Below, one piece after another: positions 1 to 54,604 of a stretch of 64,000 bases of DNA. A program made the position numbers and the translations under genes. This DNA is from a virus. The stretch is taken from the IMG/VR virus record IMGVR_UViG_3300035670_000068, positions 46,317 to 110,316 of that record, one strand, 5' to 3'. The notes under the pieces are model-generated. The model searched no databases and had not been told where the DNA came from. It saw nothing but the letters and a program-made list of their open reading frames with translations. Each line of letters starts with the position of its first letter. Position 1 is the first letter of the stretch.

Positions 1-393
1 CCGCTGGTCGTCGTTGGGCTCTGTTATCCAGGTGCCGTCTGCGCCGATCTCGTCCGTGCAGACGATCCAGACCATTCTCTCGGGCTCCCAGACTATCCAG
101 GCCGACCCTAGCCTCTTGCCATATTTGGCTACAGCCAGGGCGAACACACCGTCTTTGGCTACCGGCTCTTCAACCCTTCCAATGCTGTTCTCCCAGCTCT
201 CGTAGTAGGCAAAGCCTGTGGGCAGCACCAGCACCTCGTCGGAATACTCGAACGAGATCAGGTGAGGGCTGCGCTTCAATTTGGTCAGGAAGTTCGGGGT
301 GCCATCTACGCAGACCAGAAAGGCGGTTCTATCCCGGATTTCTTCGAACGATATGGCTCTGTTGACCAGGACGTTCTGGTATTTCTTGCTCAT
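1..393 (-). CDS. Hypothetical protein, 3' end outside window
   Basis: This open frame starts at ATG 393 and runs 131 codons off the left edge without a stop. The start overlaps the stop of the next gene upstream in an ATGA, so the two are probably translationally coupled. The visible part is rich in Trp and Tyr (AYYESWENS, SAWIVWEPERMVWIV) and has no signal peptide or membrane segment. I do not recognise the family. Its tail is not visible, so it cannot be scored for the shared C-terminal motif of its neighbours. Confidence 0.75.
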   Translation of the reverse strand, partial: MSKKYQNVLVNRAISFEEIRDRTAFLVCVDGTPNFLTKLKRSPHLISFEYSDEVLVLPTGFAYYESWENSIGRVEEPVAKDGVFALAVAKYGKRLGSAWIVWEPERMVWIVCTDEIGADGTWITEPNDDQR

Positions 394-878
394 GACCAGG
401 CTCCATAGAGTCTTGGCTTAGGTGTCTTGTCAGGCACTTTGCGAGGTGGCTCTTGAGCAGGTCGAGCCTCATCCCTGGCCAGGTAAACCAACATGGCCAT
501 CTTCATTTCAAACTCTTCGGAGCAAGAGCTGATCAGCTGGGAGAAGGTTGCCCAGGCATCGTGAAAATGGTCGTGGTATTCGTTCCCGGAGCACCAGCAG
601 TTGCCTGTCCAGTAGACCTGGGCGATCACCTCTTGGTCCCGCACCAGCATGGCGAATCTCTGCTTGGCAGCCATGTTTCTCGGGACATAAACCTCGCTGA
701 TCCGGGAGTGATCTCGAACCAGCTCCACGCCTTCTACGACCGTCAACCCCTCGTCGTTTCCGATGTGTGTCGTTACCGGCTTGAGGTTCACCGGCTTGTC
801 GTAGAGGTCTTGACCAGGCTCATTGACCAGCTTTGGAATCATGGAGTGGTTGATCTTGATCCACACCACTTCACTCAT
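390..878 (-). CDS. Hypothetical protein ending in YGAWS
   Basis: A 162-residue protein whose ATG overlaps the previous stop (ATGA). It contains WTGNCWCSGNEYHDHFHDAW, then a helical stretch, then a basic proline-rich linker (PRKVPDKTPKPR) leading to the C-terminal YGAWS. Its layout resembles the next gene upstream (Cys/Trp-rich centre, helix, basic linker, aromatic tail), so the two may be diverged paralogues. Function unknown. The tail belongs to a set shared by at least twelve proteins in this window. Confidence 0.8.
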   Translation of the reverse strand: MSEVVWIKINHSMIPKLVNEPGQDLYDKPVNLKPVTTHIGNDEGLTVVEGVELVRDHSRISEVYVPRNMAAKQRFAMLVRDQEVIAQVYWTGNCWCSGNEYHDHFHDAWATFSQLISSCSEEFEMKMAMLVYLARDEARPAQEPPRKVPDKTPKPRLYGAWS

Positions 879-1399
879 GAGAAGGCTCCAAAGCACTCAG
901 GCTTTTTGACGGTCTTGATCTTGGTTGGCTTCACGGCGGTCGTTTGAGCCTTGTAGATTCGCTTCATGATCCTGGCCTGGTCTGGCTCAAGTGAAACCAG
1001 GTCTGCGAACTCTTCCCAAGCCTGCATGAACAACGGGAAGGTCTCGACCTCCTTAGTGGGCACAGCGTTCTTGCTGCCGGCGCTGACGTTGTTTACAACC
1101 CAGCAGCAGCCGTCAGTGCGGTCAGGCTCGTAGTAGATCGAAAACGAGCTCCATGAGCCTTTGGCGTTCTCGAAGCGGATCAAGGCTACCGGGTTCCAGT
1201 GCTCGTCTTGAAGCCTGTCGAACGGGAAGTCCCTGCCCTCTTCCACCTCGACGTTCACGAAGTCCCGTAGGTAGAGAATCTGGTCGCTGTCGTAAGCGCC
1301 CATGCCCTCCATGATGACCTGGTAGCCTTTTACCTCTTGGTCTTCGTTAAGCCAGGTCTCAAGCGGCCCGAGCATCAGTTCGTAGGACTTGGTGGTCAT
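875..1399 (-). CDS. Hypothetical protein ending in FGAFS
   Basis: A 174-residue soluble protein. The start is taken at ATG 1399, which overlaps the upstream TGA; a GTG two codons earlier is less likely. It has YYEPDRTDGCCWVVNN in the middle, then a helical segment around QAWEEFADLV, and a basic linker (TTAVKPTKIKTVKKPE) before the C-terminal FGAFS. It may be a paralogue of the gene downstream. No catalytic motif seen. Probably in the short operon that starts near the palindrome at 1659. Confidence 0.8.
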   Translation of the reverse strand: MTTKSYELMLGPLETWLNEDQEVKGYQVIMEGMGAYDSDQILYLRDFVNVEVEEGRDFPFDRLQDEHWNPVALIRFENAKGSWSSFSIYYEPDRTDGCCWVVNNVSAGSKNAVPTKEVETFPLFMQAWEEFADLVSLEPDQARIMKRIYKAQTTAVKPTKIKTVKKPECFGAFS

Positions 1400-1620
1400 G
1401 CCCACTCCCCGAACGATTCAGGCTTCGGAGCTGGAATCCGGGATTGCTCGATCTTCTCCACATGGCGATCGATCGCTCGCTTCATGAGTTCGGTTTCGCT
1501 GGGTATCTGCTTCATCAGGGCTCTGACGGCGGCAGCTCCTACCTCTGGAGGCAGCGGCTTGTGCATGGCCGCCTCCCGACGCTCAACCTCTTTCATCAGG
1601 TAGTCAAAGTAGTCCGACAC
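1396..1620 (-). CDS. Small helical protein ending in FGEWA
   Basis: A 74-residue charged helical protein, first gene of a leftward operon. The longer open frame runs through the palindrome and promoter-like region, so I place the start at GTG 1620, where AGAGAGG sits about nine bases upstream. The body is amphipathic helix (MKEVERREAAM, METHIONINE-rich KRAIDRHVEKIEQ region) followed by a proline-containing linker (RIPAPKPES) and the tail FGEWA, a member of the shared tail family. Function unknown. Confidence 0.65.
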   Translation of the reverse strand: MSDYFDYLMKEVERREAAMHKPLPPEVGAAAVRALMKQIPSETELMKRAIDRHVEKIEQSRIPAPKPESFGEWA

Positions 1621-2026
1621 TTCCCAATGCCTCTCTGCGTTTATTAGTAAATGGTTAATAACTAACTCTCTAGTTAGTAGTATGACAGTGAGGACTTGGG
1701 AATGACAGATCACCTCGTCCGGGAGCCTGTCTCTGGAAACGCTCTATAAGCTCGTCTGACGCTTGCCCATTTCGAAGCGCTATCTGCGCTCGTCTTTTTC
1801 GAGATCGTTCGATACCGCGCAAATCTGAGCGCTTCCCGAGCGCTTCCCTGCTCAGTCATCAGCTCAGTTTTCGACTAGCGCGGGTCTATGAACAAAATCG
1901 CAACTTTTGTTGCGCTCCCGGCAGGCTGAGAGCGTGACTTGGTGCGGGGTTGGAGCTACCCGAGGTGGCATTTTGTGAAGTTCAAGTTCACAGAGGTTCA
2001 CGCCTCGGTTGATCATTTTTTGAGCA
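1621..2026. other. Non-coding promoter and leader region
   Basis: About 400 bases without a convincing gene. The left part holds the operator-like palindrome at 1659-1676 with a CATACT -10-like hexamer just upstream on the minus strand. The rest contains repeated AGCGCTTCC-like words near 1831-1850 and a short GCAAC/GTTGC hairpin near 1899-1914. A small RNA or leader is possible but nothing decides it. Confidence 0.4.
1659..1676 (-). promoter_or_regulatory. Operator-like palindrome, site 1
   Basis: TAACTAA-CTCT-CTAGTTA on the plus strand, one mismatch in the second arm. On the transcribed strand a CATACT hexamer lies directly upstream, so transcription toward the 1620 gene would start within the palindrome. 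Confidence 0.7.
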
Positions 2027-2052
2027 ATAAAAAGCCCTCACTAGGAGGGCTT
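2027..2052 (-). terminator. Rho-independent terminator
   Basis: On the minus strand AAGCCCTCC pairs with GGAGGGCTT-type arms around a short loop and is followed by TTTTTATT. It lies just after the stop of the 2056-2286 gene and ends that leftward operon. Confidence 0.8.
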
Positions 2053-2055
2053 GGA

Positions 2056-8502: not shown

Positions 8503-8674
8503 AAGTCACCCCACCATCCTTTGCGCCGATCACGTTCTTACGGAACACCGAGCGCTGTCCTTCGTCGAGCGGCCAGTCGATCTCATGACCACAGCCAGTA
8601 CACATCTTCTTGTCTTCACCGTGCAGCAGCACCAGCTCGGAGCACTTGCACTTAGGGCAAACCTTCGTCGTCAT
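8480..8674 (-). CDS. Small zinc-ribbon protein
   Basis: A 64-residue protein with CPKC near the N-terminus and CTGC about 20 residues later, a classical zinc ribbon. I place the start at ATG 8674 (MTTKVCPKC), which overlaps the stop of the 52-residue gene upstream; an ATG two codons earlier is an alternative. Likely a nucleic acid or protein-binding adaptor. Confidence 0.7.
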   Translation of the reverse strand: MTTKVCPKCKCSELVLLHGEDKKMCTGCGHEIDWPLDEGQRSVFRKNVIGAKDGGVTYGACNPA

Positions 8675-8829
8675 CCCCATGTCCCATACTTGCTTTTGAC
8701 TTCAAACTCTTCGAGCTCGGCGATGCCGTCCTCGATCTCCTGCAGTTCGTTGGCCCTGGCCTGCAGAACGCCGGCGAGCTCGGTCAGAACGAACTTGCGC
8801 AGCCGCTCTTCGAACGGCGGAAGGCTCAC
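8671..8829 (-). CDS. Small coiled-coil protein ending in YGTWG
   Basis: A 52-residue protein found by reading the gap. It starts at GTG 8829, overlapping the upstream stop (GTGA) with GAGGTGAG ahead, and ends in an ATGA overlap with the next gene. The body is one heptad-like helix (LQARANELQEIEDGIAELEE), followed by a short linker and the tail KYGTWG, which belongs to the shared tail family. Tight overlaps on both sides support it as a real gene. Confidence 0.7.
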   Translation of the reverse strand: MSLPPFEERLRKFVLTELAGVLQARANELQEIEDGIAELEEFEVKSKYGTWG

Positions 8830-9441: not shown

Positions 9442-9720
9442 CTATGACCATGTTCCAAATTCTTGAGGTCTACTGACCTTCTTGACTTGCTTCGGCCTCG
9501 ATTCGAGGTCGCTGTTCTCAGCCAGGCTGTCGTATTCGTCCAGCGCCATCAGATCGACCTCCTTAGCCTTCTCCATCATCGTCTTGAAGGCCTCGATGGC
9601 TTTCTTCTCCTGCATGGCTTTCATGACAGCCTCATAGGCTTCCTTCTCCACTCCGAGCTTTTCGATGGAATCGATCAGCTCGGGCATACTGGAGAAAATG
9701 CTTTTGCCTTTCCCTCGCAT
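9442..9720 (-). CDS. Helical protein ending in FGTWS
   Basis: A 92-residue, almost entirely helical charged protein (KEAYEAVMKAMQEKKAIEAF) followed by a basic linker (RPKQVKKVSRPQE) and the C-terminal FGTWS. ATG 9720 overlaps the upstream TGA. It is the clearest case of the shared tail attached to a simple helical body. Function unknown. Confidence 0.75.
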   Translation of the reverse strand: MRGKGKSIFSSMPELIDSIEKLGVEKEAYEAVMKAMQEKKAIEAFKTMMEKAKEVDLMALDEYDSLAENSDLESRPKQVKKVSRPQEFGTWS

Positions 9721-10100
9721 CACGCAGCCTTCGGAAGCTGACCGCTCTCTTCCAGGAACTCGACGATCACCTGGATCGCTTTGTCCGTGAACGGAGTCGA
9801 GCGCTGATCGACTTCAACAGCCCAGGCACCGCAGCGAGAAAGGTTGCGTGCGTCATCGAGCGCTTCGGTCAGAGTGTTGAACTTCACCACGTCGAAGCGG
9901 ACACCCGGCTGCTGCTCGTCTCGGCTGACGCGATACCAGGTGTTCTTGAGCTTGCCGTCCACCGTGCGGATGTACAGGATGCCCTGGTCATCCGGGTTGA
10001 CGGTGCTGACAACGTGCGCGACGAAAGAGCCGTACAGCTTGTTCGTCGGGTCAAACTGGAGCGGTTTCGGGTCGCTCACACCATCGATCATCACTACCAT
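9720..10100 (-). CDS. Hypothetical protein
   Basis: A 126-residue mixed alpha/beta protein (DDQGILYIRTVDGKLKNTWY). ATG 10100 has GAGG eight bases upstream; a GTG three codons earlier sits on the ribosome site and is less likely. First gene after palindrome site 4. Confidence 0.7.
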   Translation of the reverse strand: MVVMIDGVSDPKPLQFDPTNKLYGSFVAHVVSTVNPDDQGILYIRTVDGKLKNTWYRVSRDEQQPGVRFDVVKFNTLTEALDDARNLSRCGAWAVEVDQRSTPFTDKAIQVIVEFLEESGQLPKAA

Positions 10101-10168: not shown

Positions 10169-10810
10169 TCAGCTAAAAGACCCGAACCCTGGAACGCTGC
10201 TGGGAACGCTCTCTGAGCGCGTTTCTGTCTGAGCGCTACGCTTGCGCGTAATCGACTGGAGAACGTCACTAGCGAGCGTTTTGCGCGCTTCCCGACGCTG
10301 TTCCTGATCGACTTCTGCAGACTCGCGAACGTATCTGTCGCCGTTGTCCAACCAGGACAGATTGATCGACCATTCAAACTGGCTTCGCCACTCCCAGCGA
10401 TTCATTTCGACCTCTGCATAGGCTTCTGCCATGTGCAGCGGCCAATTGTTGACCTTCGCCATGTGCTTGAGCGTGGGTTCCAGGAAGCCCATGCGCGCAG
10501 CGTTGCCGATATGCTTAACCCGGTGGCAGCTCGGGCAAAGGCTGATCAGCCCGGTCAGGGTCTGGACCTTTTTGTCGTCGTCGTAGTGCCAGATTTCATG
10601 GCACTCGACAGGGTGCTTCTTCCCTACCCCGCCGCAGATTTCACAGCGATGACCGGCGTAGACAAAACAGGCTTTCTTGAGCAGACCCCACTGACTCTCT
10701 GTGATCCTGGCCCGCACGTTGTCGAACCACTGACCGAACGGGACCAGCTCGATGGTCAGCCTGGGCGGATCGAAGGGTTCGAATGGGTTTTCAGCGATCA
10801 TATTTGTCAT
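10169..10810 (-). CDS. HNH endonuclease-like protein ending in FGSFS
   Basis: A 213-residue protein with an HNH nuclease core: HRCEICGGVGKKHPVECHE, IWHY, then LISLCPSCHRVKHIG. Two Cx2C pairs bind structural zinc and the His-rich strand carries the catalytic site. The N-terminus (FEPFDPPRLTIELVPFG) lacks a recognisable partner domain. After a Ser/Arg-rich linker it ends in GFGSFS, a member of the shared tail family. Candidate for host DNA cutting or for a homing-type nuclease; no intron or intein context is seen. Confidence 0.75.
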   Translation of the reverse strand: MTNMIAENPFEPFDPPRLTIELVPFGQWFDNVRARITESQWGLLKKACFVYAGHRCEICGGVGKKHPVECHEIWHYDDDKKVQTLTGLISLCPSCHRVKHIGNAARMGFLEPTLKHMAKVNNWPLHMAEAYAEVEMNRWEWRSQFEWSINLSWLDNGDRYVRESAEVDQEQRREARKTLASDVLQSITRKRSAQTETRSESVPSSVPGFGSFS

Positions 10811-11063: not shown

Positions 11064-11300
11064 TTACGACCAGGAGCCTACAACTTCGGATTCGGTCTTC
11101 ACGGCCTCTTCCTCTGCTGGCTTGTCTTCGATCAGAGCCAGCACATGCACCCGCCCGGCGATGTAATGCCAGTCGTGCTTGTAGCCGGTTCGCTTGGTTT
11201 CGGCAGCACAGTAGTCTTCTGCCTCCTGCTTGGACATGGCGAAGAGACCCATGCTCTTGCCCCGATCAAACACTTCCTGGTCACACTTTTCGGTACTCAT
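11064..11300 (-). CDS. Small protein ending in VGSWS
   Basis: A 78-residue acidic protein (QEAEDYCAAETKRTGYKHDW) with GGAG ahead of ATG 11300. A Glu-rich linker (KPAEEEAVKTESEV) leads to VGSWS, a shared-tail member with Val in place of the aromatic residue. Function unknown. Confidence 0.7.
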   Translation of the reverse strand: MSTEKCDQEVFDRGKSMGLFAMSKQEAEDYCAAETKRTGYKHDWHYIAGRVHVLALIEDKPAEEEAVKTESEVVGSWS

Positions 11301-12250: not shown

Positions 12251-12853
12251 TTACAACACCGGAATCAACGGATCAGATATCACCAAGTTAGTGCCATCAG
12301 TCATGAAGTTAGCCGGATTCTGCAGGTCAAGAAGAACATCGTGGTCGCTCTTCTCGATGTAGTCGGATATCGCCAACAATGCCCAGGACACCGATGCCGA
12401 AAACATCCTTGAAGCCGTCAGGTCTTTCAGCGCTCTCGCATGGGAAAACTTGCCCAACTCCGGCTTCTCTCCAAGCTCGCGCGCTGCAAGCCTGAAATCA
12501 ACTGCGCTGGCTACGGCTTTACTCTCCAGAACCATAGTTTCATTTTCCCACTTATCCAGCGGGCGCAACTTGACCACTTCCAGCAGAGATATTTGACCGT
12601 AGTCCTGGCAGTTGAAACTTCCGTAGTCGTTCACCAACTTGGGAACACCTGGCACTCCAGACTTCAAACGAACAAAGTCTGGATATACCGGGTCGCAAGT
12701 TAGTTTGAGAACCGTATTGTCGGTGCATTCGTAGACGATTGAATAACAGCCGCGACCGACAATTTTCTTGCCGGTCAGAACTGGAAACTTCTCAATAATC
12801 AAATCCCGGTCTGGGTCGAATGACTCAGTGCCGGATTCACCGAATGCCATCAT
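12251..12853 (-). CDS. Minimal protein-kinase-like protein
   Basis: A 200-residue protein with kinase hallmarks: glycine loop GRGCYSIVYE (about residues 33-42), VLK with Lys50, and near the C-terminus LLDLQNPANFMTDGTNLVIS followed by DP. The last part resembles the catalytic loop and metal-binding Asp of phage kinases that end in a DP motif, as in T7 0.7-type proteins (from memory). The Asp-to-Asn spacing is one residue longer than usual, so activity is uncertain. It overlaps the upstream stop (TAATG). Confidence 0.6.
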   Translation of the reverse strand: MMAFGESGTESFDPDRDLIIEKFPVLTGKKIVGRGCYSIVYECTDNTVLKLTCDPVYPDFVRLKSGVPGVPKLVNDYGSFNCQDYGQISLLEVVKLRPLDKWENETMVLESKAVASAVDFRLAARELGEKPELGKFSHARALKDLTASRMFSASVSWALLAISDYIEKSDHDVLLDLQNPANFMTDGTNLVISDPLIPVL

Positions 12854-13344
12854 TACGACCAGCCCCCGATATTGATGCCTTTCGCGCTCGCTGCTTCCAG
12901 GAGCTCTTCGTCAACATCGATGGCCAGCTCCTTCATCACCGGCGCCAGCTCGTTGCCCTCTTCAACCAGCACCATTTCCCCGTCCTCGTCTTCGTCGAGG
13001 TAGGAGCCTGTGTATTTCAGGAGAACGTCTTCATAGGCAGCCATCGCTGCAGACTTGGTGCGGAAGGTTTCGGTGGCGCCGTGATCGATCACCCAGCCCT
13101 TGTCTTCCAGGACACTCTCTTCCTCCCACTCGCTCTTGCGAACCTGGAGGCGGGTGCGAACGAAGATGCCGTGCGAATGCCGGTATTCGGCGGGGAGCTT
13201 CTTGTCGTAGCGACCGATCCACTCAACCGCGATCCAGATGCGGTCGTTGCGGAACTCTTTGATGATCCAGTCCTTGCAGTGGCTCTTTTCCTCCCACTGC
13301 TTCTTCGACAGGCCTTTGCCGTCAATGTCCTGGTAGATGAACAT
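12853..13344 (-). CDS. Hypothetical protein ending in IGGWS
   Basis: A 163-residue protein, first gene after palindrome site 5, with GGAG ahead of ATG 13344. It is rich in Trp and charged residues (RIWIAVEWIGRYDKKLPAEY), then an acidic stretch (DEDEDGEMVLVEEGNE), then a helix and the tail IGGWS of the shared family. Function unknown. Confidence 0.75.
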   Translation of the reverse strand: MFIYQDIDGKGLSKKQWEEKSHCKDWIIKEFRNDRIWIAVEWIGRYDKKLPAEYRHSHGIFVRTRLQVRKSEWEEESVLEDKGWVIDHGATETFRTKSAAMAAYEDVLLKYTGSYLDEDEDGEMVLVEEGNELAPVMKELAIDVDEELLEAASAKGINIGGWS

Positions 13345-13521: not shown

Positions 13522-14100
13522 CTAAATGCCAACAAATTGACAGGGCTTGTCGAACATGCCGAACTCGATGCCGTTCCAGTAGGCTTTTTCAAGCACCTCA
13601 ACGTCGTAATCGGCGGCGTGAGCAGCATCCGGGTCGTAATCAACGCCAGTTGCCCAGCAAAGCTCTCTCAGGTTCGGAACCTTACCGAACCCGGTAGATG
13701 GTCGGCCTTTCAGCATCGTATCGAACACCTTGATCGGCGGCACTCGATAGCCCAAACGAATCAACTCCAGGGCGATGAAGGGTGCGTCAAAACCTTCGCC
13801 ATTATGGGCGACAAAAATCTGACACATGGACATGATCTTGTGGACCTTCGGGGCAACATCCTCCCAAACCGGGCAGCCACGCAGGTCAGTGATCGAAATC
13901 CCATGCACTGCTTGAGCGCCTGGATCGATATCACGCATGGGGTTGATACGCTGATTCCAGGTCGAGCCGACCTTGCGCTTATCGCCCGTCGCCGGGTCGT
14001 ATTTCCAGACACCGAAAGCTACTTCGATGATGCGGTGGCCGGACTCCTGGCTCAAGCCAGTGGTCTCGATATCGCCAACGCAGATGTTGATGGTGCTCAT
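13522..14100 (-). CDS. DEDDh 3'-5' exonuclease (DnaQ/RNase T-like)
   Basis: A 192-residue exonuclease starting at ATG 14100 (MSTINICVGD), overlapping the next gene by ATGA. Exo I motif GDIETTGL supplies Asp and Glu, Exo II is VAHNGEGFDAPFIALEL, and Exo III is HAADYDVEVL with the His-Asp pair. The size fits a stand-alone proofreading or RNA-trimming enzyme. The window's C-family polymerase has no recognised exonuclease domain, so this could proofread for it (inference). Confidence 0.85.
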   Translation of the reverse strand: MSTINICVGDIETTGLSQESGHRIIEVAFGVWKYDPATGDKRKVGSTWNQRINPMRDIDPGAQAVHGISITDLRGCPVWEDVAPKVHKIMSMCQIFVAHNGEGFDAPFIALELIRLGYRVPPIKVFDTMLKGRPSTGFGKVPNLRELCWATGVDYDPDAAHAADYDVEVLEKAYWNGIEFGMFDKPCQFVGI

Positions 14101-14543
14101 ACCAGCTCCGTAAAGCCGCGCTTTGTCAGTCCTTCTGCCAGCTCGTTGAAGTGCTGGCAGGCCCATTTGTACTCGTCATCTGCCGAGTCGTTCTTGATTT
14201 CCTTCGTGGCCACGCGAACATCAGGCTGACGAACGATCGCAGTCATCAGCACTCGGCCAGACTCGCGATCCAGCTTGAGGATCACGATGCGCTCAGCGGT
14301 GTAGAAGGCACGAACATCGCCGGCATCGATGTGCGACAAGCTCATGCGGCGCTCAGACGCCCACCTGCTGTACTCGTCTGGAATCAGGCCAAGAAGAGCC
14401 ATATCCAGGGCGATCAAAGCATTGAAGAAGGCGTTGTCGCTCAAGCACCCGCGCTTGTACTGGTTATCGAGCCAGGAATAGGCCTCACCAGCTTTGCGAG
14501 TAAGCTCTTCGGACAAGCTGAAATCTTCTGCCTGCATGACCAT
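14097..14543 (-). CDS. Hypothetical protein
   Basis: A 148-residue helical protein starting at ATG 14543 (MVMQAEDFSLSEEL), two bases after the stop of the zinc-finger gene upstream; a longer frame from GTG 14588 would lie inside that gene. Contains GLIPDEYSRWASERRMSLSH. No recognised family. Confidence 0.65.
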   Translation of the reverse strand: MVMQAEDFSLSEELTRKAGEAYSWLDNQYKRGCLSDNAFFNALIALDMALLGLIPDEYSRWASERRMSLSHIDAGDVRAFYTAERIVILKLDRESGRVLMTAIVRQPDVRVATKEIKNDSADDEYKWACQHFNELAEGLTKRGFTELV

Positions 14544-14545
14544 GA

Positions 14546-14698
14546 TCACGCACTCGCCAGCCGACGCTTCTGACGAATCCGGCTGCACTTCGAATGGTTA
14601 GTGGTGGCGTTACGGTGCCTGCCGCAAACGTCGCAGTAGGAATTGCACGCCTTCACGATGCTGCGCATACGCAGCGGGACAACCTTGAACTCTTGCAT
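14546..14698 (-). CDS. Small zinc-finger protein
   Basis: A 50-residue basic protein found by reading the gap (MQEFKVVPLRMRSIVKA...). It contains CNSYCDVCGRHRNATTNH then SKC, a plausible Cys/His zinc site, and a basic tail KCSRIRQKRRLASA. First frame after palindrome site 6, ending two bases before the next start. Probably nucleic acid binding. Confidence 0.65.
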   Translation of the reverse strand: MQEFKVVPLRMRSIVKACNSYCDVCGRHRNATTNHSKCSRIRQKRRLASA

Positions 14699-14759: not shown

Positions 14760-15116
14760 TCACAGCCCTGCCCTCTCTTCTGCTGCCAGGAGAGCGTCAC
14801 GACGCTTCGAGAAGCCGATGCAGGCGACGTTCTTGCCGCACGGCTCGCCCGTTGGGTAAACAGCCACGCTATCCGGGTCATCGACAGCCTGAGCGTTCTT
14901 GATCATCCAGTCGGGCAGACAGGAAATGCTCGGGCTCTGCTGGTTCTCGTCATAGACCCAGCAAGTGACCTGGCGAACCTTGTCGTGGCGCACACTGACG
15001 TAAGGGAACGGCTCGTTGATCGACTTGTGGCGAGCTTCACGAAGGCGCTCAGCGTCAGTTTGAGGCTTGCAGCCGGCGATAATCAGAGCAGCGGCGATCA
15101 GGATCAGGCGCTTCAT
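14760..15116 (-). CDS. Putative lipoprotein
   Basis: A 118-residue protein with a short signal sequence (KRLILIAAALIIAGCK) ending in the lipobox IAGC. The mature part has four Cys (TCWVYD, ISCLPDW, EPCGKNVACIG), which could form disulfides in the periplasm. Its ATG overlaps the upstream stop. Function unknown; likely made in the bacterial envelope. Confidence 0.78.
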   Translation of the reverse strand: MKRLILIAAALIIAGCKPQTDAERLREARHKSINEPFPYVSVRHDKVRQVTCWVYDENQQSPSISCLPDWMIKNAQAVDDPDSVAVYPTGEPCGKNVACIGFSKRRDALLAAEERAGL

Positions 15117-15508
15117 GAGAACATTCCTATGCCGAGCTTCTCGGCGTTCTGAGCGATTTCCAGTCGAACAGCTTCGACCAGGCGCTCCAGGGTTTGACGA
15201 TCCAGAGCCAGGTCTTTGCCGACTCGCTTCATGACCGCGATGAACTGGCCCTGCATAGCGTCACTGGACGCCAGCAGCGCTTCGCGAACCATGCTCTCGA
15301 TCATGGCCTCGTCGGAGATCACCTTTTCGAGAGCTCGACTCACCGCAGCCTTGATCACCAGCTCGTTGCCGGTGATCACCTGGTCGACCATTCGATTGAC
15401 CTGAACCTTGATCTGAGAACCGCTGCCGAGCATGGCGTCGCGGATTGCCTGGTGAGCAGCAGCCTCAACTGTGCTCTGCAGGCCGGTGATGGTCAGAGAA
15501 TCAGTCAT
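15113..15508 (-). CDS. Helical protein ending in IGMFS
   Basis: A 131-residue all-helical protein (VIKAAVSRALEKVISDEAMI, then RQTLERLVEAVRLEIAQNAE) ending LGIGMFS, a shared-tail member with Phe. It overlaps both neighbours. No recognised domain. Confidence 0.7.
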   Translation of the reverse strand: MTDSLTITGLQSTVEAAAHQAIRDAMLGSGSQIKVQVNRMVDQVITGNELVIKAAVSRALEKVISDEAMIESMVREALLASSDAMQGQFIAVMKRVGKDLALDRQTLERLVEAVRLEIAQNAEKLGIGMFS

Positions 15509-36115: not shown

Positions 36116-36146
36116 AGTTTTTACGCCTCGTTTCGGATGTTGGGAT

Positions 36147-36176: not shown

Positions 36177-36202
36177 AGACTCACCAACTAAGCAGCTCGC
36201 CG

Positions 36203-36237: not shown

Positions 36238-36750
36238 TCAGTCGCACGAACTGCTAGAGGTAGAACAAGAGCTGCCGCTATCGCTGCTCGAACTGCCGCC
36301 CCAGGAGCTCGAACTGCCGCAACTGCGGGAGCTTTCGTAGCTGCTGGAAGAGCTGTACGACGGCTCACAGGAGCTGCTGCGCGAAGAGCGGTCGTCGTCC
36401 AGGTTCAGCGGGTTTGCCGGGTTCAACGGATGCGACACGCTCATGGGGTTCAGCGGGTTGCTCAGATCGTTGTCATAGCGACGTGCCGGCGTTGCGTGCG
36501 CGGTCGGCTTCGGTTCGCGTCGAGTCGCAGGTGCAGCCTTTGCGACCGGCTTCGGTCGGCTGATCTGATCAACACGAACAGGCGGAACAACCAGATCGCT
36601 GGCGAAGGTAGGAGCTCGACGAGCCTCGATCTTCTTCTCCAGCTCACGGATCGCCTGTTGGCGCACGCGGTTGGTGTCGCGATAGATGGCATAGCCAACA
36701 GCTACAACAGTGAGCAGTGTGGCGCCGCCCAGGATCAGTTCAGTGTTCAT
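36238..36750 (-). CDS. Membrane protein with Ser/Cys-rich tail
   Basis: A 170-residue protein. An N-terminal membrane helix (LILGGATLLTVVAVGYAIY) is followed by a basic coiled-coil (VRQQAIRELEKKIEARR), a Pro/Arg linker, NPLNPMSVSHPLNPANPLN repeats, and a final 50 residues nearly all Ser with scattered Cys, Gly and Tyr (SSSWGGSSSSDSGSSCSTS). Low complexity makes homology hard to judge. ATGA overlap with the 37664 gene. Confidence 0.68.
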   Translation of the reverse strand: MNTELILGGATLLTVVAVGYAIYRDTNRVRQQAIRELEKKIEARRAPTFASDLVVPPVRVDQISRPKPVAKAAPATRREPKPTAHATPARRYDNDLSNPLNPMSVSHPLNPANPLNLDDDRSSRSSSCEPSYSSSSSYESSRSCGSSSSWGGSSSSDSGSSCSTSSSSCD

Positions 36751-37721: not shown

Positions 37722-40700
37722 TCAAGTAAAAATCTCTGCTACCTGAGCGAATACCGCATCGAGCAGTCCTTGTTTCGAACCGTCGAAGGCGATTTGTGCA
37801 GGGTTGAGTCCAAAGACGATGGTGCAATCCATCTTCGGGTCATAGTGGCTCTTGCCCACCAGCTCTTCCCATCCACCTTTCACCTCCGGGACCAGGTGTC
37901 GAATCGTCTTCGTACCCAGCGCCACGATGACAGGCGGTTTAAGCAGCTCGATCTCTCGACGCAAGTATCCTGCGCAGCCGTTGATCATGGAGTTCTCAAG
38001 CTCCATTTCCTTCGGCTTGCGGGCCTTTATCAGAGAGGTCATGTAAACGTCCTTCATCTTGAAGCCATGCTTGTCCATCGCTTCTTTGATGTAGCCGGCC
38101 GTATCGCCCACGCCGAACATGCCCTTCTCTTCCTCTTTCCAGGTCGGCATGTCGGTGATCAGCATCATGCGGGGCTTCTTACCCAGCGAGGGGTTCGGGT
38201 GCGTCAGACCGCCCAGCGGGCAAGCAGAGCAAGCGCACGTCTCGTCCACGATCTTGACCAGCTCACCCGCGACATACGGGTCAACCATGATCACCCGCTC
38301 AGCCTTCACGTTGTTCGTGACGATACCCGGCAAGAGCTCCTTCTGATCACGAAGTCGATCAGGGTGCCTGGCGTCAGGCTGAGTAGGCTCGATCTCTGCG
38401 AAGGCGCCCACTTTGTCCAGGGACTCTTGGACCCTGACGTTGCAGGATCGTCTGTTCACCCGCGCAATGAAGTCAGCCTTGTCTTTGAACGGGCCGCCCT
38501 TTCTCGCCTCCAGGATCGCCTGCGCGCCTGTTTCGGATAGACCCTTGATCGCTTGGAACGGCGCGTACAGCACCTTCTGCCCGCGACGGTGGTCATAGCC
38601 AATCTCGTAGCGGTCGGAAGACTTGTTGATGCTCGGCGGCACGATGTTGATTTCGTGCTCCAGGGCGTCTTTAGCCAGGCCCTGCAGGCGGTCTTCTGCC
38701 AGGATGCTCATGCAAGCGGCGAAGAAAGCCTCCGGGTGGTAGGTCTTCACCCACATCGTAATGTAGGAGATCAGGGTGTAAGCGGTTGCGTGCGACTTGT
38801 TGAAGGCGTAGCCGGCGAACTTCTCGATCTGCTCGAACAGGTTGGTGGCCACCAGGCGGTCCAGGCCCGAGACAGATTCACAGCCATCGACGAACTTGTC
38901 GCGCTGCTCGGCCATCTTGATCGGGTCTTTCTTACCCATGATCTTGCGCAGCCCGTCCGCTTCGGCCATCGAGTAGCCTGCCAGGTCTCGGGCCACCTGC
39001 ATCACCTGCTCCTGGTACACGATGACCGAGTAGGTTTCGCGAAGTGCAGGCTCTACGCTCGGGTGGATGTACTCGGGCGACTCGAAGCCTCGCTTGATCT
39101 TGACGTACTGATCCATCAGACCGGATTGCATCGGGCCTGGTCGATAGAGCGCTGTGGCAGCTGTTAGGTCGTCGAAGGTCAAGTTGCCCTCGCTGCCCAG
39201 GTCTTTCAGCAGCCGTCGCATACCGCCCGACTCGAACTGGAATACACCGAACGTCTTGCCGGCTGCGAACGAGTCGAGAACCTTTCTGTCATCCAGGCGC
39301 AGCGTCGTGAAGTCGACCTCGACCCCCGTCTGTTCCTTGATGTAGCTCTTGGCCAGGCGCATCACGTCCAGGTTGGAAAGACCCAGCACGTCGAGCTTGA
39401 TCAGACCGAAGTCCTCGACCACGCGCTTGTCCCAATTCACGACGTTCATGCCTTTGTCGTTCTTGAGGACGGCTCGATTCGCTACCGGCTCGCCGGCGAC
39501 GATCACGCCCGCTGCGTGCTGAGCGAAGTTACGGAAGCAGCCCTGCAGACCGACAGCCGTTTTCCAGACGGTCGGGTTGGCAATGGCGAAGCTCTCCAGC
39601 TCGGGCACCATCGCGACCGCTTCTTCAATCGGGATCGGCTGACCCGCTTCTTTCGGGACCAGCTTGGAGCAGTCGTAGTCGGACTCGCTCAGACCGTGCG
39701 CCTTGCCAGTCTCGCGAATCGCGCCCGCGCCCGCGATGGTGTTGTAGTTGGCGATACAGGCTACCCGGTCCTCACCGAAGTGCTCGACCAGGTGCTCAAC
39801 CACGTCCTGACGGCGGCTCGACATAAAGTCGAGGTCGATATCGGGAAGGTCGATACGCTCCGGGTTCAGGAAGCGCTCGAAGATCAGGCCGAAACGGATC
39901 GGGTCCACGTCAGTGATGCCCATCAGGTAGGCGACAAGCGAACCGCCGACAGAGCCCCGACCTGGACCTACTGTGATCTCGTTGCTCTTCGACCAGTCCA
40001 CGATGTAGCTCACCAGGAGGAAGTAGTCCTCAAAGCCCATGCGGTTCAGAACGCCCAGCTCGTACTTGAGGCGATCTCGATAGACCGGAATCTGCGATGC
40101 GTCAGGCTTGTAGCCAAACACCTCTTTCGTCAGGCGCTTCGACCAGCCCTTTCTGCACTGCTCAACCAGGGCAGCCAGCGGATTCGGGGCCATTTGCGGT
40201 AGGCTGACGGGCATCTTGTCCCACTTGTAGGTGGTGCAGATGAAATACTGGTCGGTGGCGTCTTCTGCGCGATCAAAGACCACTTTCAGATCGGACTCGG
40301 CGTAACCGAACTTGGTCAGGCGCTCGATGGTCTGGTTGATCTCGTAGCGCATTTCACCCGGCGTCAGAACGTGCAGGTCTTCTGCTGGCTCACGGCGGAA
40401 GGTGTCAGTGACCTTCTGGTGATCCAGGATGCAGTTCATCGTGTTGCGGAAAGCCACCTCGCCTTTGCTGTTCAGCGTGGGCCTGGTGATGATCGATCCA
40501 AAGCCCCAGCGGCCAATCGCCTCGCAGGCCTTTGCGTTGTGTCTGTCGTAGTACAGCGAGTTCACGGGAACGAGCTCTACGCACGCGGCAACGTCGCTAC
40601 AAGCGTCGGCAATCTTCTTGCACTTGTCGTATGCGTCTTTCATGGAGAACACGCTGTACGCACTTCCCAGCGTCATCCCGATGTTGCCCCGCTTGAAGAC

Positions 40701-41096
40701 CTCAAGCACCTCGTCGAGCGAGAGCTGGGGTCGCGCCGGCTTCTTGCAGCGATGATCCTCTCTGTTCGCCAGGGTCAGCAGACCGATAATGTCCTTGAAG
40801 CCTTCTTCGTTGTTCGCCATCAGGGTTGGCATGAAGAACGGGTTCGGTGCTTTGCGCGGCTCACCACGCTTCGCTGCCACCCAATTCAGATCGTCCACGA
40901 CATACACCTGGACGGCCAGGCCGATATCGACACCATCAGCCTTCTGACTCAGGATCGGCATCGCGTCGATACTGTGAACGTCACTGACAACCAGGCCTTC
41001 CCAGCCCGCTTTCGCTACGTCCTTGACCAGATGCTCGGGATTGCAGATCGACTCCCCGAGCGAGAAGTGCGTCTTGGCTCCGATCAGAACCTTCAT
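37722..41096 (-). CDS. DNA polymerase III alpha-like, with C-terminal UDG-like domain
   Basis: An 1124-residue C-family replicative polymerase. The N-terminus is a degenerate PHP domain (KTHFSLGES, VVSDVHSIDA). The palm has PGRGSVGGSLVAYLMGITDV and the catalytic Asp motif LPDIDLDF near residue 418; later GVFQFESGGMRRLL and YRPGPMQSGLMDQYVKI. The usual beta-binding/OB/tau part is absent. Residues about 945-1124 instead match the Fe-S uracil-DNA glycosylase superfamily: CACSACPLGG, KGMFGVGDTAGYI, DVYMTSLIKARKPKE, PPVIVALGTKTIRHL. Motif 1 is MPT rather than EAPG and the His-Pro motif reads LNPAQIA, so base excision is doubtful. Confidence 0.92.
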   Translation of the reverse strand: MKVLIGAKTHFSLGESICNPEHLVKDVAKAGWEGLVVSDVHSIDAMPILSQKADGVDIGLAVQVYVVDDLNWVAAKRGEPRKAPNPFFMPTLMANNEEGFKDIIGLLTLANREDHRCKKPARPQLSLDEVLEVFKRGNIGMTLGSAYSVFSMKDAYDKCKKIADACSDVAACVELVPVNSLYYDRHNAKACEAIGRWGFGSIITRPTLNSKGEVAFRNTMNCILDHQKVTDTFRREPAEDLHVLTPGEMRYEINQTIERLTKFGYAESDLKVVFDRAEDATDQYFICTTYKWDKMPVSLPQMAPNPLAALVEQCRKGWSKRLTKEVFGYKPDASQIPVYRDRLKYELGVLNRMGFEDYFLLVSYIVDWSKSNEITVGPGRGSVGGSLVAYLMGITDVDPIRFGLIFERFLNPERIDLPDIDLDFMSSRRQDVVEHLVEHFGEDRVACIANYNTIAGAGAIRETGKAHGLSESDYDCSKLVPKEAGQPIPIEEAVAMVPELESFAIANPTVWKTAVGLQGCFRNFAQHAAGVIVAGEPVANRAVLKNDKGMNVVNWDKRVVEDFGLIKLDVLGLSNLDVMRLAKSYIKEQTGVEVDFTTLRLDDRKVLDSFAAGKTFGVFQFESGGMRRLLKDLGSEGNLTFDDLTAATALYRPGPMQSGLMDQYVKIKRGFESPEYIHPSVEPALRETYSVIVYQEQVMQVARDLAGYSMAEADGLRKIMGKKDPIKMAEQRDKFVDGCESVSGLDRLVATNLFEQIEKFAGYAFNKSHATAYTLISYITMWVKTYHPEAFFAACMSILAEDRLQGLAKDALEHEINIVPPSINKSSDRYEIGYDHRRGQKVLYAPFQAIKGLSETGAQAILEARKGGPFKDKADFIARVNRRSCNVRVQESLDKVGAFAEIEPTQPDARHPDRLRDQKELLPGIVTNNVKAERVIMVDPYVAGELVKIVDETCACSACPLGGLTHPNPSLGKKPRMMLITDMPTWKEEEKGMFGVGDTAGYIKEAMDKHGFKMKDVYMTSLIKARKPKEMELENSMINGCAGYLRREIELLKPPVIVALGTKTIRHLVPEVKGGWEELVGKSHYDPKMDCTIVFGLNPAQIAFDGSKQGLLDAVFAQVAEIFT

Positions 41097-42295: not shown

Positions 42296-43513
42296 TCAGC
42301 CGAAGATACGCTTCGCGATACCCAGCGCTGCTTCACGCTCTGCATCCGGCAGGCGGTTGGCGTAGGCGTACTGCACGCCCTCAACGAAGTCACCCTTCAT
42401 CATGCCGACGCGAGCCATGTTGATCGCTACACGCGGGCCGATGGTCAGAGACACTTGGTTCGGGAACGCCTTCACGCGAATCTCGTCAGCGAACTGGCGA
42501 ATCTTCTTGGCGTCGTCAGCGTGCAGACCAGTGGCTGCGCTGATCATCGCGACTTCCTGCTTCTCTGGCGGATAGTCCACCTTCGCTACCAGGCCGAAGC
42601 GCTCGATGGTCGCAGCGTCTTGCACCAGGGTCGCTTGATACAGGCCGGTCTGGTCGCCAGTACCGTTGGTGTTGCCGGTTGCAGCGAAGCAGAACAGCGG
42701 GTGCGGCTTGATCATGCGCAGATGGGCCGGAGCGTTCTTGATGATCAGCGGCTCACCTTCGAGGATCGCTTGATAGGCCGACAGGACGGTCGGGCTGGAG
42801 CGGTCCATTTCGTCAGCCAGGTAGAGCCAGCCGTTCATCATTGCCAGCGGCAGCGGGCCAAGCTCGAACTCGGTGACGCTGATCGCATTGCCGTTCACGT
42901 CGATGTGCTTCTTGACCACCCACTGACCGACGATGTGGCTTTCTTCGGTATCGACAGTGTGCTGGAAGCGGAACAGACGACGGTTGGTGCCTGCGCAGAT
43001 TTGCTTGAACACAGAGGACTTGCCGACGCCCGAGTGACCGTACAGGAAGATCGGCGAGCGCAGCTCAAGGCCCATCATGATGGTCTTGGTGAGTTCCGGG
43101 TTCAGGATGTAGTTCTCGTTCCACTCCGGGACCAGGTAGTCGTGCTCGTCGGAGCGGTTGTCGCGGCTGATCGGGATCGGGTTGCCGGTCTTGGTGAAGG
43201 CCGACTTGGTGGATTTCGGGAAGCGGAAGGCTTCGTGGAAGAACACCTTCTCGATATCAGCGTGACCGCTTGCAGCCGGCTTGGCAGCAGGTGCAGCTTC
43301 TTCACCGCTAGCAGCCTTCTCTTTCTCTGCGCGCTTTTCGCGGGCGATGCGCTCAGCGGTTTCGCTCAGCAGCGTGGCTTCCGGGAAGCGCTCGCGATAC
43401 TCAGCCAGGGTGCAGGTTTCGCTCGCACCGTCGCCGTGTGCGGACTTGAGGTGGGTTGGGATGCTGTGTACTTCTTCGCCACAGATTTGGCACTTGATCT
43501 TATCGGTAGACAT
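42296..43513 (-). CDS. MoxR/CobS-like AAA+ ATPase with zinc finger
   Basis: A 405-residue protein. The N-terminal 45 residues are a Ros/MucR-like Cys2His2 finger (KCQICGEEVHSIPTHLKSAH). The rest is a MoxR/CobS-type AAA+ domain: Walker A LYGHSGVGKSSVFKQI, Walker B GWLYLADEMDRSSPTVLSAY, and FCFAATGNTNGTGD (sensor 1). Such ATPases work with a VWA-domain partner, and that partner is the next gene upstream. In phages, CobST-like pairs are common and their role is not established. Confidence 0.87.
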   Translation of the reverse strand: MSTDKIKCQICGEEVHSIPTHLKSAHGDGASETCTLAEYRERFPEATLLSETAERIAREKRAEKEKAASGEEAAPAAKPAASGHADIEKVFFHEAFRFPKSTKSAFTKTGNPIPISRDNRSDEHDYLVPEWNENYILNPELTKTIMMGLELRSPIFLYGHSGVGKSSVFKQICAGTNRRLFRFQHTVDTEESHIVGQWVVKKHIDVNGNAISVTEFELGPLPLAMMNGWLYLADEMDRSSPTVLSAYQAILEGEPLIIKNAPAHLRMIKPHPLFCFAATGNTNGTGDQTGLYQATLVQDAATIERFGLVAKVDYPPEKQEVAMISAATGLHADDAKKIRQFADEIRVKAFPNQVSLTIGPRVAINMARVGMMKGDFVEGVQYAYANRLPDAEREAALGIAKRIFG

Positions 43514-43607: not shown

Positions 43608-45755
43608 TCAGGCGGACATGAGGGCATCGCGCAGCTGATTCAGGACGATGCCTGGCAGCTCTTCCACGTTGTCCAGCTTGACGTTCTTGCGGTAGAAGTG
43701 GGACACCGAGTCGGAGCAGATGCCGATGCCGACGATGTTGGTGCCTTCCTTCTCGATGCGGGCGACGGTCTGCTTCAAGTGGTTGTTCAGCTTGGAGCTC
43801 GACACGCTCGCAGCCGGCATACCATCGGAGAAGACGATCATCATCTTGCCTTTCGGCTTGCCCTTGTTCGCGGCTTTGCACAGCCGTTCGTAGGCGTACT
43901 GCACAGACTCGCCATCGACGTTGTTCTGGAGCGCACCGCGAATGTGGTAGTACGAGGCCATCCGCTTCTTCTGCTCAATGCCGAAGCGTTCGTCGAAGGA
44001 CTTGAACACTGGCATACGGATGGGCTCGGTTCGATCCCAGCTGCGACCGTGACTCCACTCGTCGCTCAGCTCCCGATACAGCTTGCGGCCTTCGTCGCTG
44101 TCGTAGTCGCCAGTAGTGAAGCCGATCACTTCGTTCGCCACGCCCAAGCGAGTCAGAACCTCGCTCACTACCCAGGCCGCGCACATGGCGGTGAAAATCT
44201 TCCGCCCTCTCATGGAGCCAGAGCAGTCAACCACCAGGGAGACGGCAACGTCTCGGGTGCGGTGCTCGATCTTCTTCTTGAAAATCTTGTCGTCACCGGC
44301 AGTCAGGCGATAGAGGTTGTTCGCGGACATTTTCCCCTTGTTCTGACCCTGCTGCCAAAGCGACTTGTTGCGCGCAGTGAAGGCACGCTCCAGCTGACGT
44401 GCGACCGGGCCAACCATACCGTCGATAGCCTTCTCGATCTCGGTCATCCAGGCAGGGCTGTAGCTGCTAGGGATTTTCGGGGGCTCGATCTGGTCCCACT
44501 CGCGGGTAAAGATCGTGTAGGTCTCGTTCTCCATTTCGGAGGTACACAGCTCAGTGACGTGCTGGGCGAACTCGGTGCCCATATCCTGAACCTTGTTCCA
44601 GTCGAACTCGGCCAGCATCGAGGCGCCGCCTCGCTCGGACTGGATGACCTCTTCGTCTTCTTCCATGTCCTTGCGCTCGGACTGGTCGGAGTGACCGTCA
44701 GCGCCTTCTTCGAGCTTGTGCGGCTCGTCGTCGGACTCTTCATCGTCAGACTTGCCTTCGGCTTCTTCACCTTCGTCTTCCGACTCTTCGCCCTCTTCCT
44801 CGCCTTCCTCGCGCTCTTCGGGGGCCTCTTCGCCCTCTCCTTCCTCACCGGAAGAGCCTTCTTCGTCGCGCTCTTCCTCTTCACCAGAGCCACTGCCAGA
44901 GCCCTTACCGCCCGAGCTCGAACCTTCCTCTTCTTCGTCAGATTCGCCCGAGCCACCGCCCTCCCCTTCTTCGCTACCAGCGGGAGACTTGTTCTTGCGA
45001 CCGCTGGAACGCCCGCCAGCAGCTTTCATTCCGCCCTTGCCCTTGCCGCTCTTCGACTTGTTCTCGTCGCCGAACGGGTTGTGACCGTCGCCCTCCAGGG
45101 GCTCGCCTTCTACGACGTTGCGAATCTGCTTCGCCATTTCGTAGGCATCTTCGGGCTTGGTCATGCTGCCAATCTTGGAAGCAATCGGGTCGAGCTCCTT
45201 CTGGATGCCGGCGATCAGCGACCACTTGTCGCTCATGTAGTCCTTGAAGAACTCTTGACCGCCCCAGGCGCGCAGAGCGGGAATCGCGAGCACCTGGAAC
45301 AGCTGCTGCTCACTGGCGCCGTTCGCGAGCGCTTCTTTCAGCTTGGGCTCGATGAACTTGTCCACGAAGGCCTGGTGCATGTGGTTCAGGTTCTGACGCG
45401 AACCCGGAAACGCCTTCGTCATGCTCTTTTCACAGAACAGCGATTCGATGGGCTTGTAGATGCCTTCCAGCTTCTCGTACTTGGAGCGCAGAGCAGAGCG
45501 CGGGTCTGCGTATAGAACTTTGGCGATCTCGCCATCCAGGAAGCCCTGAACGGCATCGATCAGCTCGTCGGAGGCGTCGTCCGGGATCATCGGGAGATTG
45601 ACTCGCGACGGCTTCATGGTGTGCTCGTCGTACTTGACGAAGGCCTGAACACCGGCCTGAGTCACAGAAACTTTGTCGTCGGTCAGGATTTTCGCGATCT
45701 TGGTGATCGATTCGCGAATCACCTGGATGCGCTTGGCTTTGGCGCTGCTGCTCAT
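43608..45755 (-). CDS. CobT-like VWA-domain protein
   Basis: A 715-residue protein. Residues about 1-215 are helical. About 215-390 is a long low-complexity acidic Ser/Glu region (SGEEGEGEEAPEEREEGEEE). The C-terminus is a VWA domain with a MIDAS motif SLVVDCSGSMRGRKIFTAMC and MMIVFSDGMPAASV. Same layout as CobT, partner of the CobS ATPase in cobaltochelatase. Here the pair lacks a chelatase gene nearby, so it probably remodels another target. Site 22 is upstream. Confidence 0.85.
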   Translation of the reverse strand: MSSSAKAKRIQVIRESITKIAKILTDDKVSVTQAGVQAFVKYDEHTMKPSRVNLPMIPDDASDELIDAVQGFLDGEIAKVLYADPRSALRSKYEKLEGIYKPIESLFCEKSMTKAFPGSRQNLNHMHQAFVDKFIEPKLKEALANGASEQQLFQVLAIPALRAWGGQEFFKDYMSDKWSLIAGIQKELDPIASKIGSMTKPEDAYEMAKQIRNVVEGEPLEGDGHNPFGDENKSKSGKGKGGMKAAGGRSSGRKNKSPAGSEEGEGGGSGESDEEEEGSSSGGKGSGSGSGEEEERDEEGSSGEEGEGEEAPEEREEGEEEGEESEDEGEEAEGKSDDEESDDEPHKLEEGADGHSDQSERKDMEEDEEVIQSERGGASMLAEFDWNKVQDMGTEFAQHVTELCTSEMENETYTIFTREWDQIEPPKIPSSYSPAWMTEIEKAIDGMVGPVARQLERAFTARNKSLWQQGQNKGKMSANNLYRLTAGDDKIFKKKIEHRTRDVAVSLVVDCSGSMRGRKIFTAMCAAWVVSEVLTRLGVANEVIGFTTGDYDSDEGRKLYRELSDEWSHGRSWDRTEPIRMPVFKSFDERFGIEQKKRMASYYHIRGALQNNVDGESVQYAYERLCKAANKGKPKGKMMIVFSDGMPAASVSSSKLNNHLKQTVARIEKEGTNIVGIGICSDSVSHFYRKNVKLDNVEELPGIVLNQLRDALMSA

Positions 45756-53681: not shown

Positions 53682-53709
53682 AACGAACCTCTCTGGTTTA
53701 GGTTTTGTT

Positions 53710-53727
53710 TAACTAACTGCTGAGTGA
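53710..53727 (-). promoter_or_regulatory. Operator-like palindrome, site 26
   Basis: TAACTAA-CTGC-TGAGTGA. On the transcribed strand a perfect TATAAT (53728-53733) abuts it, so the start site should lie in the palindrome. Drives the ligase unit. Confidence 0.8.
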
Positions 53728-53730
53728 ATT

Positions 53731-53761
53731 ATAAGCGCACTTGAAAGGGAAGTGCGCTTAT
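53731..53761 (-). terminator. Hairpin after the 54604 gene
   Basis: Arms ATAAGCGCACTT and AAGTGCGCTTAT with a short loop. No long T-run follows, but it lies right at the end of the 53780-54604 gene and overlaps the TATAAT of site 26. Confidence 0.55.
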
Positions 53762-53779
53762 CCGTTTGGCGATCGATCG

Positions 53780-54604
53780 TCAGCCAAACGCACCCCAGGC
53801 CGAGTAGACCTGCTCAGGCATCTTCACCTCTTTCACCGGCTTGGCTTCTTTGGGCGCGTAGACTCGGGAGGCGGTATAGACTTCGCCAGACGCCTCGTCG
53901 TCGAACCCTTTGCTGGAGAGGGTGGCGGTCAGAAGACTTCGAACGGCCGGCAACATCACCGAGAGAGTCATGTTCTCGGTTCTTTCTACGCCTACCAGGT
54001 AATCGGCTTCTTTCAGAGCCTGTTCGAGCAGACCAGCGCGGCTGATTCGACGGATCAGTCCCGAGACTACGGGGTTCGCCATCATGCTATTCGCGATCTT
54101 CTCACCAACTTCCTCGAAGCCGTTTTTAGCGACCATATCGCGAAGCTCGCCGGTGCTGATGCCAAGCTGATGAATCGCCACGTCTTTCTTGTGAAGCTCA
54201 GAGCACCAGGACTGGTTTCGATTCCATCCGGTTTCGCGACCGCAGTAGGCGAGGACTTCGTAGCCTTTGGCAATCACCTTCGAGCCAACGGTCGCATACC
54301 ACTGCTGTGAGGACTCGGCTTTCACGTTGACCTGGCCGGGTAGACCGGGTTTGCGGTTCCACCAGGTAATGCTGACGCCGTTCATCGAGCTGGAGTTGGT
54401 CGGCAGGAAGATCGACTGCCAGGACTTGCCCTCAGAATGAGTACAGATGATGGCCGATATTTCGAGCGAGACCACGTTGATCTCGGAAACCACCGTCTTG
54501 TGCAGGTAGTTCTTAACATTGTCGCCGACGCTCAGGAAACCAGGCGCGACCTCACGGTCGTAATCTGGAAGGTCTCGACTCGGGAAGAGAGGGGTAAATT
54601 TCAT
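53780..54604 (-). CDS. Hypothetical protein ending in WGAFG
   Basis: A 274-residue protein (MKFTPLFPSRDLPDYDREVA) with beta-rich N-terminal half (GVSITWWNRKPGLPGQVNVK) and helical C-terminal half. A basic linker (PKEAKPVKEVKMPEQV) leads to YSAWGAFG, which fits the shared tail. It lies between ligase and primase, so a replication link is possible. Ribosome site is inside palindrome site 27. Confidence 0.7.
   Translation of the reverse strand: MKFTPLFPSRDLPDYDREVAPGFLSVGDNVKNYLHKTVVSEINVVSLEISAIICTHSEGKSWQSIFLPTNSSSMNGVSITWWNRKPGLPGQVNVKAESSQQWYATVGSKVIAKGYEVLAYCGRETGWNRNQSWCSELHKKDVAIHQLGISTGELRDMVAKNGFEEVGEKIANSMMANPVVSGLIRRISRAGLLEQALKEADYLVGVERTENMTLSVMLPAVRSLLTATLSSKGFDDEASGEVYTASRVYAPKEAKPVKEVKMPEQVYSAWGAFG

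Follow-up and report, generated by a model that had tools for sequence, protein, structure and literature searches.

The window analysed here is a stretch of 64,000 nucleotides, bases 46,317 to 110,316 of the 110,316-base IMG/VR virus record IMGVR_UViG_3300035670_000068. Twelve of its genes, all on the minus strand, encode proteins that end in a common short tail, a hydrophobic residue followed by G-x-[WF]-[SGA]. The DNA polymerase III alpha subunit (DnaE) encoded in the window was 64-65% identical to that of hairong, Nican01 and nickie, Pseudomonas syringae phages of the genus Nickievirus. Identities were 42-45% to DnaE of Rhizobium and Stenotrophomonas phages and 37-39% to DnaE of SSU5 and Klebsiella phage-plasmid-like records. 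By sequence, the phage is a 110-kb relative of Pseudomonas phage nickie.

A gene cluster at 390-1713 contributed the first tails. Gene 390-896, encoding 168 amino acids (aa) with no known domain and no PHROG match, ends in YGAWS (393-407). Gene 875-1405 (176 aa) ends in FGAFS (878-892), and gene 1396-1713 (105 aa), whose C-terminal half weakly resembles the Mu Gam-like protein encoded by hairong, in FGEWA (1399-1413). The gene at 8671-8829 is an open reading frame (ORF) of 52 aa with the tail YGTWG (8674-8688), which reads YGKWA in the related genome G004 and MGGWA in nickie. FGTWS (9445-9459) terminates gene 9442-9723 (93 aa) and FGSFS (10172-10186) the HNH endonuclease gene 10169-10810, which was assigned by PHROG 5200 (E=7e-49) and matched Pfam HNH at E=0.0033, under the Pfam cut-off. 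Further tails were VGSWS (11067-11081) on gene 11064-11300 (78 aa), IGGWS (12856-12870) on gene 12853-13344 (163 aa, PHROG 5241), which adjoins DnaQ, and IGMFS (15116-15130) on gene 15113-15508 (131 aa). Gene 27616-28401 (261 aa), located between SbcC and RuvC, ends in IGMFG (27619-27633), and gene 28406-29128 (240 aa), directly after SbcC, in FGTWG (28409-28423). The last tail, WGAFG (53783-53797), belongs to the WGR-like gene 53780-54604 (274 aa) between primase and ligase. These twelve C-termini had been listed in an earlier sequence-only reading, and every one was present exactly as written. Two more tails lie just outside the window, on ORFs at coordinates -652 to -164 (FGAFS) and -167 to 393 (YGTWS). 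The complete record has 1,068 ORFs of at least 30 aa, and 14 of them ended in G-x-[WF]-[SGAT]; all 14 also matched the stricter pattern hydrophobic-G-x-[WF]-[SGA] and all were on the gene-bearing strand.

Enrichment was calculated with the internal occurrences of the pattern in these proteins as the null. The record held 12 tails in 143 called genes with 0.09 expected (Poisson P ~6e-22), and the seven nickie-clade genomes held 70 in 923 with 0.35 expected; counts per genome are lower bounds because the simple codon-usage caller used in the genome survey misses a few short genes. The sequence-only reading would have been refuted by a tail no commoner than expected, and in the survey it was about 200 times as frequent at protein ends as inside the proteins. 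For a strand comparison, a core gene gave the orientation of metagenomic relatives, and the pattern [WFY][GA]x[WF][SGA]? was found at 111 of 5,550 unique ORF ends on the coding strand versus 5 of 6,734 on the antisense strand. The tails might nevertheless have arisen by chance, from a DNA-level repeat or as a by-product of overlapping start codons and ribosome-binding sites, as the next called start overlaps 64 of 126 tails and ends of the TGG-TCA-TGA type contain a start codon. A DNA repeat was ruled out by 113 distinct DNA sequences among the 126 tails and by the use of all four Gly codons. Translational coupling or gene overlap was ruled out by the 50 of 126 tails after which the next called gene lies more than 20 nt away or is missing. 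With the enrichment, the antisense control and the retention in orthologues added, the probability of such an origin is negligible.

Seven nickie-type genomes together held 87 tailed proteins. Their bodies were grouped into 39 families, which is an upper bound because a few members of the 390-1713 cluster are distantly related. The carriers had been described as unrelated proteins, which was mostly right, with up to 39 families, and overlooked the distant kinship within that cluster. Absence of the tail from orthologues had been named as a second ground for rejection; it was instead retained in orthologues or positional equivalents with only 22-30% body identity. The tails of genes 12853 and 28406 were each kept in seven of seven clade genomes and that of gene 15113 in five of five relatives. 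Positional counterparts of gene 27616 were 22% identical, and the tail was still there. Two genes showed variation at the end. The HNH nuclease at 10169 has an extension ending FGSFS and its six clade orthologues end without a tail, while the VGSWS end of gene 11064 is matched by relaxed ends (..WA) in five relatives, e.g. VSDWA and NPWA. A search for related loci with the 28406 protein alone gave no matches. The protein encoded at 12251-12853, next to the tailed gene 12853, matched PHROG 3809 (E=1e-18) and weakly PHROG 15752, for which the annotation is a T7-type protein kinase, inhibitor of host transcription.

No other carrier was as widely conserved as the WGR-like protein beside the primase (53780-54604). 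Across an alignment of 38 members, the bodies were 10-29% identical to the window protein and the motif was at the end of all 38. Since these had been selected as tailed, a second search was carried out with a profile that stopped short of the tail, the search set being the loci collected for this analysis. It yielded 66 unique members, of which 65 ended in [WFY][GA]x[WF][SGA]?. The last ended in VGDFA, which still fits the pattern of the sequence-only reading. The counterpart in Rhizobium phage X66 matched Pfam WGR with E=1.1e-11 and was united with the 53780 protein by one profile. The 53780 protein itself had no Pfam match, and its AF2 model had no significant PDB match and low confidence over the last ~35 residues; the WGR assignment of this protein therefore rests on profile homology and position.

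Recognised domains among the carriers were mostly related to DNA. A Pfam search of 137 non-redundant tailed proteins gave ten WGR, six ExoX-like_C, one BRCT and one ATP-dependent DNA ligase domain, as well as one weak unrelated match, and PHROGs added Mu Gam-like end protection and HNH. The tailed DNA ligase (L117:2848-4233) ends in GFGEWA and was the only one tailed among 79 ligase C-termini. Carrier positions recurred between primase and ligase, after SbcC and beside DnaQ. No tail was found in the sampled C-termini of DnaE, DnaB, primase, SSB, RecA, exonuclease, RuvC, SbcC, SbcD and DnaQ, nor in those of CobS, CobT, UvsY-like, PHROG 2500 and PHROG 3932 proteins. The structural and lysis-block genes of the window's own record, nickie and hairong were also untailed (0 of 81). 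The tag thus marks accessory proteins, DNA-related where a domain is recognisable, rather than the core machinery or the virion block.

This distribution bears on whether the tail serves as an encapsulin-like signal that loads proteins into the capsid for injection with the DNA. C-terminal cargo peptides are a known kind, the carriers have a median length of 157 aa, and the Mu Gam-like end-protection protein and the nucleases among them would be useful on entry. However, the conserved carriers are located in replication operons, the structural and lysis block has no tailed gene, and the open-licence PubMed Central literature searched yielded no virion proteome. Virion loading is accordingly given a small probability, and the packaging signal offered as one option by the sequence-only reading gained no support.

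The tail was not confined to the nickie clade. The strict pattern gave 0, 1, 0 and 0 matches in four related phages with comparable ORF numbers, initially taken as controls, but three of these carry a register-shifted tail and the fourth has two WATW ends. The shifted tails came to light in an unbiased survey of the residue pairs at C-termini. Rhizobium phages N1_10 and X66 showed terminal [HN]PNFGRF and similar ends on ~7-9 proteins each, and Stenotrophomonas phage ANB28 showed terminal ENYGxW on ~10 proteins, mostly in one cluster. In SSU5, the protein after the primase ends in GWATW and the protein after SbcC in TWATW; a Klebsiella record had both of these SSU5-type WATW ends. Dozens of metagenomic lineages ended in DRGxxWGSW or NPxWGxF, and WGSW, WGxF, YGSW, NPLFGRF and NPxEGxW were also found. 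Genome-collection contigs titled Vibrio, Magnetospirillum, Roseospira and Ectothiorhodospira carried the tail as well, and Xenorhabdus and Morganella contigs had a MAGMF end at the corresponding gene position. The superfamily consensus was an aromatic (or aliphatic) residue, [G/A], any residue and [W/F], followed by the end or by one small residue (S/A/G). The linker before the tail was variable and often rich in Pro or charge.

Each phage used one dialect of the tail and dialects differed between phages. Dialect distance correlated with mean core-protein distance (r=0.75, 20 genomes), a tracking of the phage backbone that suits a phage-encoded reader. It would be unexpected if the tail docked on a strongly conserved surface of a host protein such as the beta clamp, SSB or RNA polymerase. 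The motif is also without the QLxLF pattern of clamp binders. Use of the host clamp is plausible in these phages, as a segment conserved in DnaE of the superfamily, DQxELLPG, looks like a beta-clamp-binding motif, and C-terminal clamp peptides exist; a host hub for the tail is nonetheless quite unlikely.

Several relatives showed another frequent C-terminal end. Between 10 and 19% of the called genes ended in -AA in X66, N1_10, G006, G008, G009, G014 and G018 (counted in loci L044-L049, L056-L061, L154-L159, L165-L176, L189-L194 and L207-L212), for example 26 of 138 genes in G009 and 23 of 131 in X66, compared with 3-5% in 325 chromosomal genes of two alphaproteobacteria. The -AA ends may represent a second C-terminal code, perhaps a ClpXP-type degron.

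A degron function was also considered for the aromatic tail itself. The tail would then time the destruction of early accessory proteins by a host protease or through a phage adaptor that drifts with the lineage. Its C-terminal position after flexible linkers on many small early-region proteins would be compatible with this, and the enrichment of -AA in several relatives suggests that C-terminal codes may be in use. The nickie clade moreover encodes an HslV-like, proteasome-beta-type peptidase, which in the record lies at positions 36972-37442 on the minus strand (L002:17972-18442; PHROG 1040, E=2e-38). It was present in the nickie-type genomes examined, with a divergence between genomes far above that of DnaE. 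As a general reader of the tail this peptidase was rejected, since it was not found in the tailed phages X66, N1_10 and ANB28 and occurs in many other phages. The highly conserved WGR-like protein and the DNA ligase would be odd targets for constitutive degradation, the dialects would require a co-drifting adaptor and the motif is not of the -LAA type. A degron is thus judged unlikely. The protease signal that the sequence-only reading had listed as an option found no positive support.

The tail has the features expected of a docking motif, with the same short end on unrelated bodies beyond chance, kept while linker and body diverge. Because it is strictly C-terminal, linker-borne and modular, with gain or loss on individual proteins such as the HNH nuclease and the DNA ligase, and outlasts the body sequence, a docking tag is the best explanation. 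We give about even probability to the reading that it is a C-terminal docking peptide plugging exchangeable accessory proteins into one phage-encoded, replication-associated hub. The variable linker would present the tail, and many unrelated bodies would dock onto one shared hub in the infected cell. The docked cargo would comprise handlers of DNA ends and nicks, nucleases and ORFans possibly serving host takeover. The hub is probably phage-encoded and would be part of, or attached to, the replication and recombination machinery, which is indicated by the carrier positions (primase-ligase, SbcC, DnaQ) and the DNA-related domains. We infer the binding, the single hub, its encoding by the phage and its place in the replisome from the distribution of the tails. 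The docking motif for one common partner proposed in the sequence-only reading is in this sense retained, with the partner itself still putative.

Several observations weigh against this docking reading. Plain vertical inheritance would give the same correlation between dialect and backbone, so the correlation is no proof of a phage-encoded reader. Most carriers are without a recognised domain, and the term DNA-related rests on a minority. The genome G015 (L195-L200) has nearly all core genes and is without a recognisable tail; no WGR-like gene was found there between primase and ligase. It may serve as a natural negative control; the hub there has a role that does not depend on the tail, or else the tail system has been lost. 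Partial correlations over the core families, finally, single out no reader.

Candidate hubs for a docking tail were sought among the untailed core proteins of the window, where the DnaE, PHROG 2500, PHROG 1192, PHROG 1069 and CobT-like genes lie on the minus strand. DnaE (37722-41096) has a UDG-like C-terminal domain in which the expected HPS motif reads [FIL]NP. The PHROG 2500 protein (59517-60257) was present in 23 of 23 superfamily genomes compared. Its AF2 model was all-helical (pLDDT 96) and had no PDB match, and its divergence did not track the dialect. Other candidates were the single-strand DNA-binding protein of PHROG 1192 (35300-36187), the PHROG 1069 protein (36747-37664), annotated as UvsY-like in phage Cyrano, and the CobT-like protein (43608-45755) together with CobS at 42296-43513. 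CobS and CobT also raise the alternative that a MoxR-type AAA+/VWA remodelling machine recruits clients or adaptors through the tail, both genes being present in 23 of 23 superfamily genomes compared. CobT is not a sufficient reader, however, because CobT also occurs in ICP2 and Gordonia phage Kvothe, in which no tails are recognisable. The relation may still hold inside the superfamily, where CobT divergence did not track dialect (partial correlation -0.25), and a role of the tail as a CobS/CobT client tag is very unlikely overall.

The partial-correlation scan over all core families was not discriminating, and the comparison of tail-less G015 with the tailed genomes gave no convincing reader candidate. 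PHROG 3932 was rejected as a sliding clamp, because in its alignment the N-terminus is acidic and variable and the conserved C-terminal part is short. A small family beside DnaQ (14097-14588 in the window) occurs in most superfamily genomes and is a possible theta-like DnaQ partner; its ANB28 member ends in QGSW. As a reader it was dismissed, since it is missing in G015 but also in tailed N1_10 and G005, and the ANB28 member itself ends in GSW.

A broader form of the docking reading, which we hold tentatively and at somewhat less than even probability, covers the whole superfamily, that is nickie, Rhizobium N1_10 and X66, Stenotrophomonas ANB28, SSU5 and the dozens of metagenomic lineages. The tail would be an address code specific to each lineage and would act as a port for accessory and host-takeover proteins, its reader being a core phage protein that belongs to a new kind of peptide binder. 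The helical PHROG 2500 protein and the UDG-like domain of the phage DnaE are candidate readers of this kind.

The tag provides a handle, from sequence only, on dozens of phage proteins without recognisable domains; whatever its reader, the proteins bearing it have a location or a fate in common. Should a hub in the replisome read it, the tag would amount to a catalogue of accessory factors for replication, protection and takeover across many proteobacterial phages and phage-plasmids. It would also be a general port for grafting new functions, of which the tailed HNH nuclease and the tailed DNA ligase are examples. Since tags can be exchanged between lineages, the dialects open the idea to testing, and the tag makes a large set of uncharacterised phage proteins experimentally addressable.

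In the open-licence PubMed Central literature, nothing relevant was found on a shared phage C-terminal motif or on phage WGR proteins. Short terminal peptides on unrelated proteins are nevertheless known from several systems. Clamp-binding peptides (PIP box on PCNA, QLxLF on the beta clamp and C-terminal peptides on T4 gp45) are short, hydrophobic and found on unrelated proteins of DNA metabolism, including DNA ligase. The phage tails resemble them in being short, aromatic or hydrophobic and located, as clamp peptides often are, at the C-terminus after a flexible linker. They differ in sequence, as neither QLxLF nor QxxhxxFF is present and aromatic-[GA]-x-[WF], with any x, has no conserved Q or L. 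The phage polymerase is furthermore untailed and has an internal clamp-motif-like segment instead. Bacterial SSB recruits partners to replication forks through an aromatic-containing C-terminal tip. The layout is reversed here, with many tailed accessory proteins and an untailed phage SSB, and the phage tail is not acidic. Encapsulin cargo-loading peptides and the targeting sequences of T4 internal proteins take unrelated proteins into a shell by one short terminal peptide, but their sequences are different, and the phage carriers lie in replication regions and none in the structural block. C-terminal degrons (ssrA -LAA and similar) are likewise short end signals on unrelated proteins, whereas the phage tail is not of the -AA type and is found on a protein conserved across the superfamily. 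The HbYX and HslU C-terminal tails, which dock on proteasome-like peptidases, share the last or penultimate aromatic residue, and the nickie clade has an HslV-like gene. This gene is, however, absent from tailed relatives, and dozens of carriers are unlike an activator tail. The short C-terminal docking peptide is thus a known kind; the present consensus, its spread across a phage superfamily and its dialects were not encountered in the literature searched.

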